A stretch of DNA of 64,000 nucleotides from positions 558,001 through 622,000 of the forward strand of contig NZ_FNFE01000001.1 of assembly GCF_900100335.1 (NCBI RefSeq), written 5' to 3'. Shown here piece by piece: positions 7,790 to 16,662 of the stretch. This stretch comes from Natronorubrum texcoconense (lineage in GTDB: Archaea; Halobacteriota; Halobacteria; Halobacteriales; Natrialbaceae). Position numbers and translations under genes: made by a program. The notes under the pieces were generated by a model. The model had not been told where the DNA came from. It did no database searches and saw only the letters and a list, made by a program, of their open reading frames with translations. Every line of letters begins with the position of its first letter. The first letter of the stretch is position 1.

Positions 7790-9070
7790 TCAGGGTCGTC
7801 GACGGGCGCACTCGAGGACGGCGTCGGTCAACACCGAGACGCCGATGTCGAGGCTCTCCTCGTCGATATCGAAGGTGGGCGTCTGGTGGTTGGTCGGGTG
7901 GTCCGTTCCGACGAGGACGTACGAGGCGAGTCCGCCGGACTCCTGGACGCGTTCCATCAGGTAGGTCGCGTCCTCGCTCGCGCCGAGATCGGCGGTCTCG
8001 ATGACTTCGTGGACGCCGGTGGATCGCCGCGCGACCTCGCCGACGAGATCCCGCAGCGCGGGGTCACTGTCGACGCTCGGCGACTCGCTGATCATCCGCG
8101 GAGTCACGTCACAGTCGTGCATCTCCGCGGCGGCGTAGCAGACGCGCTCGAGTTCCGTTCGCGTGTACTCCATCAGCGCGGTCGTCTCCCCGCGGACCTC
8201 GCCTTCGATGGTGATCTCCTCGGCGATGACGTTGCTCGCGGTGCCGCCCTCGATGCAGCCGAAATTCACGCGGGTCATCCCCTCGTCGTGGCGCGGAATC
8301 GCGTAGGCGTTCTGAATCGCGGTCGCGACCGCCTGCATCGCGTTGGCTCCCTCGTTGGGGGCCTTCCCCGCGTGTGCGCTCGCGCCCTCGAACGTCACCG
8401 TGATGTGAGCCATCGCGAGCGGCTTCTCGACCCCGGCGACGACGGACCCCGTCGGATGATCGAGCCCCAAATGCACGGCGAGCAGGTAGTCGACGTCGTC
8501 GAGATACCCCCCTTCGGCCATCGCCTTGCCGCCGCCCGAAATCTCCTCGGCGGGCTGGAAAAACACCGTAAACGTCCCCGAAAACTCGCTCGCCGCGACC
8601 GCCTCGAGCGTCCCGAGCGCCATCGCGACGTGGGCGTCGTGACCGCAGGCGTGCATGTAGCCGTCGTGCTCCGAGCGAAAGCTCTCGTCGGCCGGCCGGT
8701 GGCCGGGTTCGTCGGACTCGCTGATCGCGGTGGCGTCCATGTCGACGCGCAGGCCGACCGACGGCCCCTCGCCGCGCTCGAGGACGGCCACGACGCCGGT
8801 GTGTCCGTCGGCCGTCTGCTCCAGTACATCCTCGCGAACGCCGGCCTCGCGGGCACGCTCGAGCCAGGGCTCGATCGCCGCCGCGTCGGGGACGGCCATC
8901 CGCGCATCGGTCGCGAGACAGTCTCGGCCGATCGCGATCTCGTCGACGCCGATCCGCTCGAGTTCTTCGACGATCCGCCCGGTCGTCCGGAACTCCCGCC
9001 AGCCGGGTTCGGGGTAGCGGTGGAACTCCCGCCGGAGGTCGGTCAACCTGTTTCGCACGTCGTAGGCCAT
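7790..9070 (-). CDS. M20-family metal-dependent amidohydrolase (AbgA/HipO-like)
   Basis: 426 aa. The N-terminus FHRYPEPGWREFRT is the standard opening of amidohydrolases acting on N-acyl or aminobenzoyl-glutamate type substrates. The dizinc site is visible as HACGHDAH (140-147) with the catalytic Glu pair in QPAEE (E175-E176), and a C-terminal ligand segment DHPTNHQTPTFD. The insert between residues 50 and 90, containing many Ala and Arg, resembles the AbgA subgroup of aminobenzoyl-glutamate utilisation. It would hydrolyse an amide bond to release an amino acid in the cytoplasm. Real substrate unknown. It reads alone on the minus strand. Confidence 0.88.
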   Translation of the reverse strand: MAYDVRNRLTDLRREFHRYPEPGWREFRTTGRIVEELERIGVDEIAIGRDCLATDARMAVPDAAAIEPWLERAREAGVREDVLEQTADGHTGVVAVLERGEGPSVGLRVDMDATAISESDEPGHRPADESFRSEHDGYMHACGHDAHVAMALGTLEAVAASEFSGTFTVFFQPAEEISGGGKAMAEGGYLDDVDYLLAVHLGLDHPTGSVVAGVEKPLAMAHITVTFEGASAHAGKAPNEGANAMQAVATAIQNAYAIPRHDEGMTRVNFGCIEGGTASNVIAEEITIEGEVRGETTALMEYTRTELERVCYAAAEMHDCDVTPRMISESPSVDSDPALRDLVGEVARRSTGVHEVIETADLGASEDATYLMERVQESGGLASYVLVGTDHPTNHQTPTFDIDEESLDIGVSVLTDAVLECARRRP

Positions 9071-9342
9071 TCTTGCCGGTTGTAAGCGGGGGAGCTACTT
9101 AACCGTGGCCGATACCGGGAGGAGCGACGCGCTGCCGGTCGAGCGTTCGACTTAGCGGCTACGAGGTAACGGCGACGTCGCAGTCCGCTCGGGTGCGGAA
9201 CAAAGTGAATCGTGTACGGGGCCAAAGTGAACCGGGCGATTGGAGTACGGGACGAAACGAATCGGTGAATCGAAAAGGGGGCAGAATCACCGTCGTCACC
9301 GCCGGCGATTCGATCGTCGAACTATCCTGGTTCGGCTGGACG

Positions 9343-9732
9343 CTATCCGAGGTACGCGATCGCGTCCAGCTCGACGCGAACGTCCTCGGGCAGCCGCGAG
9401 ACCTCCACGCAGACGCGTGCCGGTGGTTCCGCGCCGAACTTTGCGCCGTAGGCCTCGTTGACCGCGTCGTAGTCCTCGAGGTCGGTCAGGTAGACGGTGA
9501 CTTTGACGACGTCCTCGAGGCCGTCGCCGCCGGCTTCGTCGACCACGCTCTCGATATTCTCGAGGACCCGGTCGGTCTGCTCTCGAATATCGCCGTCGAC
9601 GACCTCGCCGGTCTCGGGATCGACGGGGCCGTAGCCGGAGACGTACAGCGTGTCGCCGGCCCGGACGCCCTGCGAGTAGGGGTTGTCGTTGCTCGGTGCG
9701 CCGTCGGTTTCGATGGAGTTGGTGTCGGACAT
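9343..9732 (-). CDS. RidA-family enamine/imine deaminase
   Basis: 129 aa with RidA/YjgF features: the N-terminal NPYSQGVRAGDTLYVSG, the conserved Arg in PARVCVEV, and VTVYLTDLEDYDAVNEAY. RidA hydrolyses reactive 2-aminoacrylate and related imines formed by PLP enzymes such as threonine dehydratase. The open frame runs further upstream, but that part is antisense-like low-complexity sequence overlapping the aminotransferase gene. The ATG at 9732 gives a protein of family-typical length. It follows the aminotransferase by 58 nt on the same strand, so the two are probably cotranscribed. Confidence 0.92.
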   Translation of the reverse strand: MSDTNSIETDGAPSNDNPYSQGVRAGDTLYVSGYGPVDPETGEVVDGDIREQTDRVLENIESVVDEAGGDGLEDVVKVTVYLTDLEDYDAVNEAYGAKFGAEPPARVCVEVSRLPEDVRVELDAIAYLG

Positions 9733-9790
9733 GTCAGTCGAATCGGTTTCAGAAGGGAATCGAGGGGGTGGTCGTGGGTCAGTTCGGTCG

Positions 9791-11161
9791 TTACGCGTCG
9801 TCGACTGCGTGTTCGATGCCGTCGACGATGACGTCCAGCGCCGTCTCCGCGAGGTCGTGGGTGAGCACGAGCGGCGGGATGCAGCGCAGGATGTTGCCGT
9901 GGCGGCCGGCCGTCCAGACGAGGACGCCGTGTTCGAAGCAGTACTGCTGGATGTCGTCGACGAGGTCGCCGTCGGGCTTTCCGTCGCTGTCGACGAACTC
10001 CGCACCGATGAACAGCCCCTTCCCACGGATCTGGCCGAGTCGGTCGGTCTCGTCGGCGGCTTCCTGCAGGCGACCCTGGATGTACTCGCCGAGCTCGCGG
10101 GCGTGGGCGAGCAGCTCGTGCTCCTGAATGTACTCGATTGCGCGGGTGCCGGCGCGCATAGCGACGACGTGGCCGCGGTAGGTGCCGGCGTGGTCGCCCG
10201 ATCCCCACGTGTCGAGTTCCTCCTTGTACATCGTCGCGGAGAGCGGGAAGCCGACGCCGCCCAGCGCCTTTGCGGAGGTCATCACGTCAGGCGTGACGCC
10301 CTCCCAGTCGCAGGCCCACCACTCGCCGGTGCGGCCGAGTCCGCTCTGGATCTCGTCGAAAATGAGGACGATATCGTTTTCGTCCGCGATGTCGCGCACG
10401 CCCTGAAGGAACCCCTTCGGCGGCGTGACGATGCCGCCCTCGCCCTGAATCGGTTCGACGATGATGCCGGCCGGATTCGCGAGGCCGCCGTAGGGGTCCT
10501 CGACGATGGCCTTGAGCTCCTCGAGCGCGTGATCGACCGCTTCCTGTGGCGACTTGTCCTGGCGGAACGGGTACGGGTACGGCGCGTGGACGACGTCCGA
10601 AAGCAGCGGCGTGTAGTGGCCCTTGAACTTCTTGTTCCCGGTGACGCTCATCGCGCCGGTCGTCGCGCCGTGGTAGGCGCCGCGGAACGCGATCAGGCCG
10701 TCGCCGCCCGTGTTGTACTTCGCCAGCTTGATCGACGCTTCGACCGCGTCGCTGCCAGTCGGGCCGCCGAAGACGACCCGGTTGTTCCCCTGCATGCCGG
10801 CCGGCGCGATCTCGTCGAGCTTCTCGATCAGCTCGAGTCGCGCTTCCGTCGGGAAGTCCACGGTGTGGACGAACTTGTCGGCCTGCTCGTGGACGGCCTC
10901 CAAGACGTAGGGGTTCGAGTGACCGACGTTGAGCACGCCGATCCCGGCGAACATGTCGATGTAGGTGTTGCCGTCGGCGTCGCGAACCGTCGCGCCTTTC
11001 CCTTCCTCGAAGGCGATCGGGATGTCGTTGGGGTAGGCGACCGCGCTGCTGTCGATGTCCTCCTGTTTCTCGAGCAGCGCTCTCGTGTTCGGTCCGGGAA
11101 CGGAGTCGACGTTCGGTGCGTCATCGAAGTGGATGTCGTCGATCGGCGGTCCTGCCGTCAT
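9791..11161 (-). CDS. Class III aminotransferase (ornithine/diaminobutyrate type)
   Basis: 456 aa PLP enzyme. Motifs: [18 protein letters not shown] (131-148), EPIQGEGG (236-243), DEIQSG (269-274) and the Schiff-base lysine in TSAKAL (K298). The overall pattern is close to 2,4-diaminobutyrate and archaeal ornithine/omega-amino-acid aminotransferases. Context favours ornithine or a related diamine. A proline dehydrogenase is encoded divergently 173 bp away, and ornithine transamination and proline oxidation both yield glutamate-5-semialdehyde/pyrroline-5-carboxylate. RidA follows in the same transcription unit, consistent with imine by-products. The exact amino donor remains inference. Confidence 0.87.
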
Positions 11162-11194: not shown

Positions 11195-11334
11195 TGTCCA
11201 CAGTATCCATACAGAGCATATACAGATTTTGAACACACTGGTAGCGAGGTCGATCGGGAGCGATCCGCCGCGATGAGACGAACGGGCCGTTCGGCATACA
11301 AACTACCTTAGGACTGGCAGTCCAATTGGGGAAC

Positions 11335-12183
11335 ATGATCCCGCCGATCGCGAACCGCTTCGTCGCCGGGGAATCCCCCGCGCAGGCGCTCGATCACGTC
11401 CGGCAACTCAACGGTCGCAACGTTCGGGCGATCGTCAACCTGCTGGGCGAACACTACGACGACCGCCCGCCCGTCCGCTCGGACGCCGCGGAGTACCGGG
11501 CGCTGGCCGGCGATATCGCCAATTCGAATCTCGACGCCACGATCTCGATCAAGCCCTCCCAACTCGGGCTCAACCTCGGCGAGGACGTCTTCCGCGAGGA
11601 ACTCGAGGAGGTCGTCGCGGCGGCGGCCGACCACGGCGTCTTCGTCTGGATCGACATGGAGGACCACACGACGACCGACGTGACGCTCGACGCGTTCGAG
11701 GACCTCGCTCGCGAGTACGGGAGCGACGACGAGTACCGGGTCGGCGTCTGCGTGCAGGCGAATCTGAAACGCACCCGCGCGGACGTCGAACGGCTCGCGG
11801 ACGTGCCCGGGAAGGTCCGATTCGTCAAGGGAGCGTACAACGAACCCGACGATATCTCGTACTCGAGTTCGGCACGGGTCAACCACGAGTACGAGGCGCT
11901 GCTCGAGTACACGTTCGAACACTACGATCGCGGAATCGCGGTCGGCAGCCACGATCCGGCGATGATCGATCGCGCGATCGACCTCCACGAGGAACACGGC
12001 ACCGAGTTCGAGATTCAGATGCTCATGGGCGTCCGCACCGACGCCCAGTACGAACTCGCCGCGGAGTATCCGGTCTACCAGTACGTCCCCTACGGCGACC
12101 GGTGGAAGTCGTACATGTACCGTCGCCTCACCGAACGGAAGGAAAACGTCTGGTTCGCCCTCCGCGCCATTCTCGGACGCTAA
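11335..12183 (+). CDS. Proline dehydrogenase
   Basis: 282 aa FAD-dependent monofunctional proline dehydrogenase with the PRODH TIM-barrel. Visible are ISIKPSQLG, the WIDMEDHTTTD strand, VQANLKRT, VRFVKGAYNEPD and the C-terminal YQYVPYGDRWKSYMYRRLTER, whose Arg pair binds the proline carboxylate. The product pyrroline-5-carboxylate would be oxidised to glutamate by a P5C dehydrogenase not in this window. A TTG at 11326 extends the frame by three codons. The ATG at 11335 is chosen as the stronger start, and it lies about 30 nt after the AT-rich element around 11300, so the mRNA may be leaderless. Confidence 0.9.
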   Translation: MIPPIANRFVAGESPAQALDHVRQLNGRNVRAIVNLLGEHYDDRPPVRSDAAEYRALAGDIANSNLDATISIKPSQLGLNLGEDVFREELEEVVAAAADHGVFVWIDMEDHTTTDVTLDAFEDLAREYGSDDEYRVGVCVQANLKRTRADVERLADVPGKVRFVKGAYNEPDDISYSSSARVNHEYEALLEYTFEHYDRGIAVGSHDPAMIDRAIDLHEEHGTEFEIQMLMGVRTDAQYELAAEYPVYQYVPYGDRWKSYMYRRLTERKENVWFALRAILGR

Positions 12184-14853: not shown

Positions 14854-16047
14854 CTACACGCCCTGACTCATCAGGTGACTGCGCAACACGTCGCCTTCCT
14901 TGTTCCCCGAGGCGGTGTTGACGATGACGACCGTCTCGCTCCCGTCGAACTCGCCGCGCTCGGCGAGTTCCCAGACGCCGCTGGCCGCCGCGGCCGGACT
15001 CGGGGCCATCTCGAGGCCCTCGTGCTGGGCCACCTGCACCGCGGCCTCGAGGATGTCCCGGTCCTCGGTGGCGACGGCGCCCCCGTCGGTCTCGCGAAGC
15101 GCCTCGAGTACCCGCCCGCTCGCTGGCGGATCCGAAATCTCGATCTCGCCGCAGATCGTGTCCGGCGTTTCGACCGGTTCGTGTTCGTCACGGTCGTTCT
15201 CGAACGCGTCGACGATCGGCGCACAGCCGTCGGCCTGCGCGGCGTACAGTCCGGGGAGATCCTCGATTAAGCCGAGTTCCCGGAGCTCCGTCGCGGCCTT
15301 GTACGCGCCGACGAGGCCGACGCCGACGCCGGTCGGGTAGACGACGACGTCGGGCACGTCCCACTCGAGGCCCTCCACGATTTCGTAGAGCGTCGTCTTG
15401 GCGCCCTCGTGGCGATACGGCGTGACGAACGACTGCACGGAGTACCAGTCCTCGTTTTCGGCCAGCCCCTCCTCGAACGCGCCGACGGCGTCGTCGTACC
15501 GGCCGCCGACGACGTTCATGTCGCCGCCGTGGACGTTGATCATCGCCTTGTTCGAGAAACTCGAGCGCGAGGGGACGTAGGAGTGTGACTCGAGTCCCGC
15601 TCGGCCGGCGTACGCGGCGGCCGCCTGTCCACCGTTGCCCGTCGTGGCGAGCGCGACGTCGCTCGCGCCGTGCTGGCTGGCGGCCGTCAGGGCGACCGAC
15701 TGGCCGCGATCGGTCGTCGACCCCGTCGGATTCCGCCCCTCGTCCTTGATCAGGAGCCGTTCGACGCCCAGTTCGTCGGCCAGGTCGGGACAGTCGACTA
15801 ACGCCGTCGCGCCCTCGTTCGTCGTCACCGCGGACTCACGCGTGAACGGGAGCAGTTCCTCGTAGCGCCACAGCGAATCGAACGGCCGGGCGGCGAGCGT
15901 CTCCCGATCCAGATCGATCGCGTCGTAGTCGTAGGTCGCGTCGAGCAATCCATCGCAGTCGGGACAGGTGTGGTACTCCGCCGCGGCGTCGAAGGAAGCC
16001 CCGCAGTCGACACAGTCGAGGCCGGCAAAAGCGTCCGTCGTCTTCAT
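14854..16047 (-). CDS. Threonine synthase paralogue lacking the PLP lysine
   Basis: 397 aa fold-type II PLP-family protein. An N-terminal zinc ribbon is present (C12, C15, C28, C31), as in archaeal threonine synthases, followed by the PLP domain. In true threonine synthases the active-site motif is NPTGSFKDRG. Here residues 106-115 read NPTGSTTDRG, so the Schiff-base lysine (position 112) is threonine. The phosphate loop is TTGNGGQAAAAYAGRAG (135-151), also altered from the usual SSGN. The rest of the fold is intact and the reading frame is clean, so this is not an obvious pseudogene. It may be a pseudoenzyme, a regulator or a protein with a different chemistry. Database annotation as threonine synthase would be unsafe. 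Confidence 0.85.
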   Translation of the reverse strand: MKTTDAFAGLDCVDCGASFDAAAEYHTCPDCDGLLDATYDYDAIDLDRETLAARPFDSLWRYEELLPFTRESAVTTNEGATALVDCPDLADELGVERLLIKDEGRNPTGSTTDRGQSVALTAASQHGASDVALATTGNGGQAAAAYAGRAGLESHSYVPSRSSFSNKAMINVHGGDMNVVGGRYDDAVGAFEEGLAENEDWYSVQSFVTPYRHEGAKTTLYEIVEGLEWDVPDVVVYPTGVGVGLVGAYKAATELRELGLIEDLPGLYAAQADGCAPIVDAFENDRDEHEPVETPDTICGEIEISDPPASGRVLEALRETDGGAVATEDRDILEAAVQVAQHEGLEMAPSPAAAASGVWELAERGEFDGSETVVIVNTASGNKEGDVLRSHLMSQGV

Positions 16048-16261: not shown

Positions 16262-16438
16262 TCAGTTGTCGCCGGTCTTCTTCTGCCACTCGTAGCTGCG
16301 GCGTTTGGCGGATTTGCCGAAGCCACAGGACGAGCAGACTTTCTTCTTCGTGTGATACGATTTCTCTCCGCAGCGACGGCACTTCGTGTGTGTCGTCGTG
16401 TTCTTCTTTCCTTGGCTCGGGGTTCCTGCGCCAGTCAT
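16262..16438 (-). CDS. rpl37e: 50S ribosomal protein L37e (eL37)
   Basis: 58 aa, very basic. It carries the zinc finger [32 protein letters not shown], with C20, C23, C35 and C38 as ligands. This is a component of the archaeal/eukaryotic large ribosomal subunit. It is too short for most gene finders but unambiguous by sequence. Its ATG overlaps the stop of the upstream LSm gene by 4 nt (16435-16438), a pairing conserved in archaea. Confidence 0.95.
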
Positions 16439-16662
16439 GGAGTGATCGAAACGACGTTATCGCCGCGTATAATGGTTGTGTCTTCGGCCGGCGTCTCTGC
16501 GTCCACTTCGCCCTCGAGGGGGATCGTCACGTCCTCGAGCACGAGATTCATGTGCTGATCGTAGCCAGCGAGGTCGCCGTCGTACTCGTCGCCACTCTTG
16601 AGTCGTACCGTGACACGTTCGCCGAGCGACGCCTCGAGGACATCCAGCGGTCGTCCACTCAT
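16435..16662 (-). CDS. lsm: LSm (Sm-like archaeal) RNA-binding protein
   Basis: 75 aa Sm fold that forms heptameric rings binding U-rich RNA. Sm1 motif: [30 protein letters not shown]. Sm2: [12 protein letters not shown]. The ATG at 16662 gives the family-standard length. Longer open frame upstream is non-homologous. It forms a two-gene operon with L37e through the ATGA overlap at 16435-16438. Likely roles are RNA stability and tRNA or small-RNA handling. Confidence 0.95.

Follow-up and report, generated by a model that had tools for sequence, protein, structure and literature searches.

What could a protein with the fold of threonine synthase be doing without the lysine that forms the Schiff base with PLP? 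The question is raised by a gene at positions 14854–16047 of the window (the whole 64,000-nucleotide stretch of Natronorubrum texcoconense DNA that was analysed). It lies on the minus strand, as do all of its features described below. As the original prediction had stated, the reading frame is uninterrupted: it runs from an ATG at 16047 to 14854 with no internal stop, and encodes 397 residues plus the stop codon. The product matches the PALP domain (PF00291, E = 4.7e-61) and has an N-terminal zinc ribbon (C12-x2-C15 and C28-x2-C31; 15955–16014), all four cysteines of which are present, as was also claimed. The AlphaFold2 model has the full fold (pLDDT 95.9, pTM 0.94), in agreement with the claim of an intact core. 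Its best matches in the PDB are threonine synthases (TM 0.78/0.89), which are the closest PDB entries by sequence as well.

Residues 106–115 (15703–15732) read NPTGSTTDRG where the lysine loop used to be. In an alignment with solved threonine synthases Thr112 stands directly opposite the Schiff-base lysine, which upholds the central observation of the original prediction. Its codon, ACC (15712–15714), is two base changes away from AAG. The protein scores 329.8 bits with the NCBIfam model for threonine synthase, NF006050, for which the curated cut-off is 303, so annotation pipelines would give the gene that name and the predicted misannotation is real.

The family and its relation to threonine synthase

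The window's genome contains a second, canonical threonine synthase with the motif NPTGSFKDRG (L003, G000:C10:205344). The normal copy that had been proposed as a check is therefore present, and the cell has not lost its sole threonine synthase. Canonical enzymes 75–93% identical to L003 are found in 20 of 20 other genomes tested, both with and without a lysine at position 112 of the family described here, and of 21 genomes, the window's among them, 20 match the strict lysine motif of that enzyme. The Schiff-base lysine is present in every other archaeal threonine synthase retrieved. Two further relatives occur in the same genome: a threonine synthase paralogue which keeps the lysine but is shortened before NPTG and has no K..EG.N stretch (L007, G000:C2:182889), and, at about 188–1063 of the window on the plus strand, a threonine/serine dehydratase-type PALP enzyme with the ordinary lysine motif TGSFKIRG (L002, G000:C2:558188-559063).

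When genome contigs were scanned, 80 loci related to the window gene were obtained, all of them haloarchaeal. These threonine-synthase-fold proteins form a haloarchaeal family, nearly always with one member per genome. Residues 166–176 (NKAMINVHGGD, 15520–15552) are a family signature common to members with and without the lysine. In the form K-A-M-I/V-N-x-H-G-G, the signature is carried by 219 of the 294 Halobacteria genomes, and 218 of these have a single match. Lys112 is present in frame in 83 of the 219 genomes and absent from about 136, so that roughly 60% of the surveyed species with the protein are without it. More than half of the family genes in Halobacteria would thus carry the name threonine synthase, almost certainly wrongly, which affects reconstructions of amino-acid pathways. 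No description of the family was found in the open-licence papers searched. Disruption by a transposon of thrC3 (HVO_2969) of Haloferax volcanii, a gene that may belong to either the canonical or the present family, produces an auxotroph that is rescued by glycine, serine and threonine.

In a wider tree, the members with and without the lysine together form a separate clade on a long stem. The window protein has TTGNGGQ and SFVTPYR where STGNTS and NS.NPYR, the phosphohomoserine-binding motifs, would be expected. These stretches are changed in the lysine-bearing members too, which also lack the canonical GNTS, NS.NPYR and GNAGN motifs and have SAGN-xxQ and GGGxG patterns closer to those of amino-acid dehydratases. 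Since the substrate motifs are missing even where the lysine is kept, the ancestral enzyme probably had a substrate other than that of threonine synthase.

Addition of 134 further loci to the first set gave 194 distinct sequences, 74 with Lys112 and 120 without. Lysine is found at this position in Natronococcus, Halorussus, Haloarchaeobius and most Natrialba; the remaining loci of the first scan have T, A, R, D, L, V, Y or F. Conservation of the TTD motif among orthologues, which had been suggested as a test, is not observed, as the exact form occurs in 6 of 294 genomes and in two genera only; it is the absence of the lysine itself that is widespread. Twelve different residues replace the lysine in the 120 sequences, which rules out one new conserved residue at position 112. 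The four zinc-ribbon cysteines are retained in 72 of the 74 lysine-bearing and 105 of the 120 lysine-less members; cysteines of the ribbon are missing from some lineages, those of Halobellus, Haloquadratum and Halomarina (L061, L066, L087, L088, L052, L053).

On a tree built by a quick method without the trait columns, on which the number of losses depends, there are at least 10 switches of the Lys112 state and at least 43 substitutions at residue 112 itself, and 15 lysine-less clades are counted if lysine is assumed never to have been regained. Among the 51 lysine-less members of the first set, columns 111 and 112 lie at the 94th and 88th percentile of entropy, and N106, T108, D113 and R114 of the same motif are invariant. 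The old lysine motif keeps its frame, but not its cofactor anchor.

The remainder of the PLP site

The lysine is not the only part of the cofactor site to have changed. In the window protein the asparagine loop facing PLP (residues 133–141, LATTGNGGQ; 15625–15651) retains N138 but differs from that of lysine-bearing orthologues by A136T and A139G. Residue 216 (15400–15402), a lysine in most lysine-bearing members, is alanine, and the PLP-phosphate loop (residues 237–245; 15313–15339) is eroded from YPTGGGVGL to YPTGVGVGL, so that it reads GVGVG and fits neither GNAGN nor GGGxG. Thr378 (14914–14916), the counterpart of the threonine synthase residue that contacts the ring nitrogen of PLP, is retained, and the C-terminal tail (residues 386–396, with D386, R389, S390, L392, M393 and G396; 14860–14892) is conserved.

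The same pattern extends across the family. Lysine-bearing members have SAGNAGQ, HEGKKTM and YPTGGGVGL almost without exception, and lysine-less members mostly have S/T-T-G-N-G/S/D-G-Q, HEGAKT and PTG-x-G. The GGGxG loop is found in 70 of 74 lysine-bearing proteins versus 1 of 120 without the lysine, and K216, which is lost together with K112, in 68 of 74 versus 2 of 120. A136T and K216A recur in most lysine-less lineages, replacement of G241 is also recurrent, and separate lineages show a similar substitution of I184 by Y or F. In a smaller set, and with the loops defined after the alignment had been viewed, the changes that accompany lysine loss cluster in the cofactor loops (p about 1e-4 by permutation).

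Support for joint loss of the loop and the lysine is modest and borderline, limited by eight independent pairs: the loop follows the lysine in about 5.5 of them and never goes in the opposite direction (sign test, median p 0.031, range 0.031–0.063). An earlier co-change test on 82 sequences yielded 7 pairs only and no significance. Intermediates exist in both orders of change. One member has lost the lysine and nothing else of the site (L077), four have the lysine and an already changed loop (L014, L052, L181, L246), and another has arginine at position 112 and a partly changed loop (L200). Loss of the phosphate loop alongside the lysine, like the recurrence of the loss, was not part of the original prediction, and neither was the poor resemblance of even the lysine-bearing members to true threonine synthases.

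The explanation judged probable is that a PLP enzyme has repeatedly been converted, in place, into a PLP-free pseudoenzyme which keeps the fold and part of the ligand pocket. The proposal of a pseudoenzyme, or of selection for a role that dispenses with the standard aldimine, is thereby supported, with lysine loss widespread and no lysine gained in exchange. A different outcome of the same changes would be a new, PLP-independent enzyme, its old pocket rebuilt to act on a related substrate with no cofactor. The recurrence of A136T, K216A and I184 to Y or F in separate lineages would fit such a rebuilding, as would a set of polar residues invariant in lysine-less members (N106, T108, D113, R114, Q141, K167, H173, R212, E303, D329, R389 and S390). 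All of these residues are, however, shared with the lysine-bearing members, and no new conserved residue of catalytic type is common to all of the lysine-less ones, so this explanation is considered unlikely.

Slightly less likely still is that PLP continues to be bound and used, either non-covalently or through K101, K167 or K217, by an active if unusual PLP enzyme. These three lysines are conserved in lysine-less members (0.97, 1.0 and 0.95, respectively), N138 is retained in 95 of 120, and T378 in 74 of 120. The lysines are nevertheless equally conserved in the lysine-bearing orthologues, and largely so in ordinary threonine synthases, and so have a role of their own. No lysine has been gained in the lysine-less members, and K216 has gone with K112. 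On this comparison, takeover of the aldimine by a pre-existing lysine, which would have overturned the original prediction, is unlikely. Moreover, the phosphate loop is changed in 119 of the 120, with residue 241 widely varied (H, T, V, I, L, D, E, R or S), and T378, present in 74 of 74 lysine-bearing members, is lost in 46 of the 120. As both N138 and T378 are retained in the window protein, weak non-covalent binding of PLP by this particular member is possible.

Selection, locus and probable role

In Natrialbaceae, lysine-bearing and lysine-less genes alike lie downstream of LSM-L37e, and in other groups both lie between an amine oxidase gene and DtxR/LysE/HD genes (neighbouring reading frames were filtered by codon-usage scoring). 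As both types occupy the same locus, they are orthologues that changed in place. In the window, the LSM and L37e genes (16262–16662, minus strand) overlap by 4 bases and adjoin the gene on its upstream side; nearly all sampled Natrialbaceae loci have both of them, or one, upstream of the orthologue, with or without the lysine.

Under an alternative account, the gene is an unneeded enzyme in decay, with relaxed constraint and a pseudogene under way. Once the lysine is lost, lineages do evolve faster (root-to-tip distance 2.48, against 1.72 in lysine-bearing ones), which fits relaxed constraint also, and every genome tested carries a canonical threonine synthase in addition. However, reading frames are intact in full-length loci, and pairwise dN/dS (Nei–Gojobori) is far below 1, at 0.07–0.26 in lysine-less pairs, mostly 0.07–0.2, and 0.07–0.22 in lysine-bearing pairs. 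In addition, 53 positions are at least 97% conserved across the 120 lysine-less sequences, and the gene is kept at a fixed locus in about three quarters of genomes. Decay is thus largely refuted and very improbable. A sequencing or assembly error, or a mutation confined to this strain with orthologues keeping the lysine, is refuted, with nothing found in its favour: many independent genomes show the loss, 120 of the 194 distinct sequences being without the lysine, and ACC is two changes removed from AAG.

Selection has held the gene in place through many independent losses of the lysine. Retention through repeated loss suggests that the protein has a job which probably no longer needs vitamin B6. 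The lysine-less members keep an enzyme fold, lack an essential catalytic residue and have been under long-term purifying selection (dN/dS 0.07–0.26; 219 of 294 genomes), as expected of pseudoenzymes. In the favoured pseudoenzyme explanation, the family ancestor would have been a PLP enzyme with a substrate probably other than that of threonine synthase, and its PLP site was dismantled separately in many lineages, the window's included. Replaced are the Schiff-base lysine, the neighbouring lysine 216 and the phosphate loop with its glycines. What is kept is the fold with its two-domain cleft, the C-terminal tail and, in most members, the zinc ribbon, together with part of the pocket that faces the substrate (R212, K217, H173-G174-G175, E303 and Q141).

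The sequences suggest that such proteins bind no PLP, no longer carry out PLP chemistry or other catalysis, and have a binding or regulatory role. They are most likely non-catalytic binding proteins. Like other pseudoenzymes on PLP folds, they could be partner subunits by which another enzyme is stabilised or regulated; alternatively, they could sense or carry a small ligand, either an anion or an amino acid. A lysine-bearing family copy was considered as the partner in the same genome and was not seen, there being a single signature match in all but one of the signature-bearing genomes. Neighbourhoods differ among lineages, with no neighbour common to all and no consistently linked partner gene, so gene context gives a regulatory role no positive support. 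In Natronomonas, Halorientalis, Halorarius and Halomarina (L056, L059, L054, L073, L060 and others) a LysE-type exporter gene lies 45–170 bp downstream on the same strand, an arrangement absent from Natrialbaceae; an operon there, and with it a hint of function, is possible. Elsewhere in the window there is an amino-acid catabolism cluster (7790–11161, minus strand, and 11326–12183, plus strand), consisting of an M20-type amidohydrolase, a RidA-like protein, a class III aminotransferase (PF00202) and, on the opposite strand to these, a proline dehydrogenase (PF01619).

A broader claim, put forward tentatively as a little short of an even chance, is that a single-copy PLP family has become cofactor-free at least 10 times within one archaeal class, with similar active-site changes and no prior duplication. 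If true, either PLP was already dispensable for the main function of the family, or repeated selection for an emptied cofactor site came from a new ligand or partner common to these lineages.

Comparison with known systems

Threonine synthase (ThrC; NF006050/TIGR00260; PDB 6nmx, 1uim, 2zsj) is like the window protein in its fold and archaeal-type zinc ribbon, and the two have in common the NPTG..DRG frame, the PYR.EG.KT segment and a database name. Unlike ThrC, the window protein has no Schiff-base lysine, no GNAGN phosphate loop and neither GNTS nor NS.NPYR, and a separate canonical ThrC is present in its genome.

In core eudicots, TSB-like is a non-catalytic paralogue of tryptophan synthase beta, a fold-type II pseudoenzyme which activates tryptophan synthase alpha (PMC12727527). 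The likeness is that of a non-catalytic protein on a PLP beta-synthase fold, kept in the case of TSB-like by selection for allosteric activation of its partner (PMC12727527). TSB-like arose in one plant group, after gene duplication, through two key changes, E190A and D386E (PMC12727527), whereas the haloarchaeal family has lost cofactor lysine and phosphate loop many times from a single-copy gene.

LCB1/SPTLC1 of serine palmitoyltransferase, a homologue of the PLP subunit without the PLP lysine, is likewise a required partner (PMC3794620). It belongs to a different PLP fold class and forms an obligate heterodimer with a lysine-bearing paralogue; the haloarchaeal protein, unlike it, has no lysine-bearing family paralogue in the same genome.

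Antizyme inhibitor has also lost its cofactor. It is an animal protein of a different fold class with an active paralogue alongside. It is described as an ornithine decarboxylase homologue turned regulatory binding protein (PMC3084279).

Repeated conversion of a single-copy orthologue in place sets the haloarchaeal family apart from these known cases. Pseudoenzymes usually follow gene duplication; here, proteins with and without the cofactor site stand at the same locus in sister species, and, with intermediates in both orders, the sequence of steps by which a cofactor is lost becomes readable and testable.
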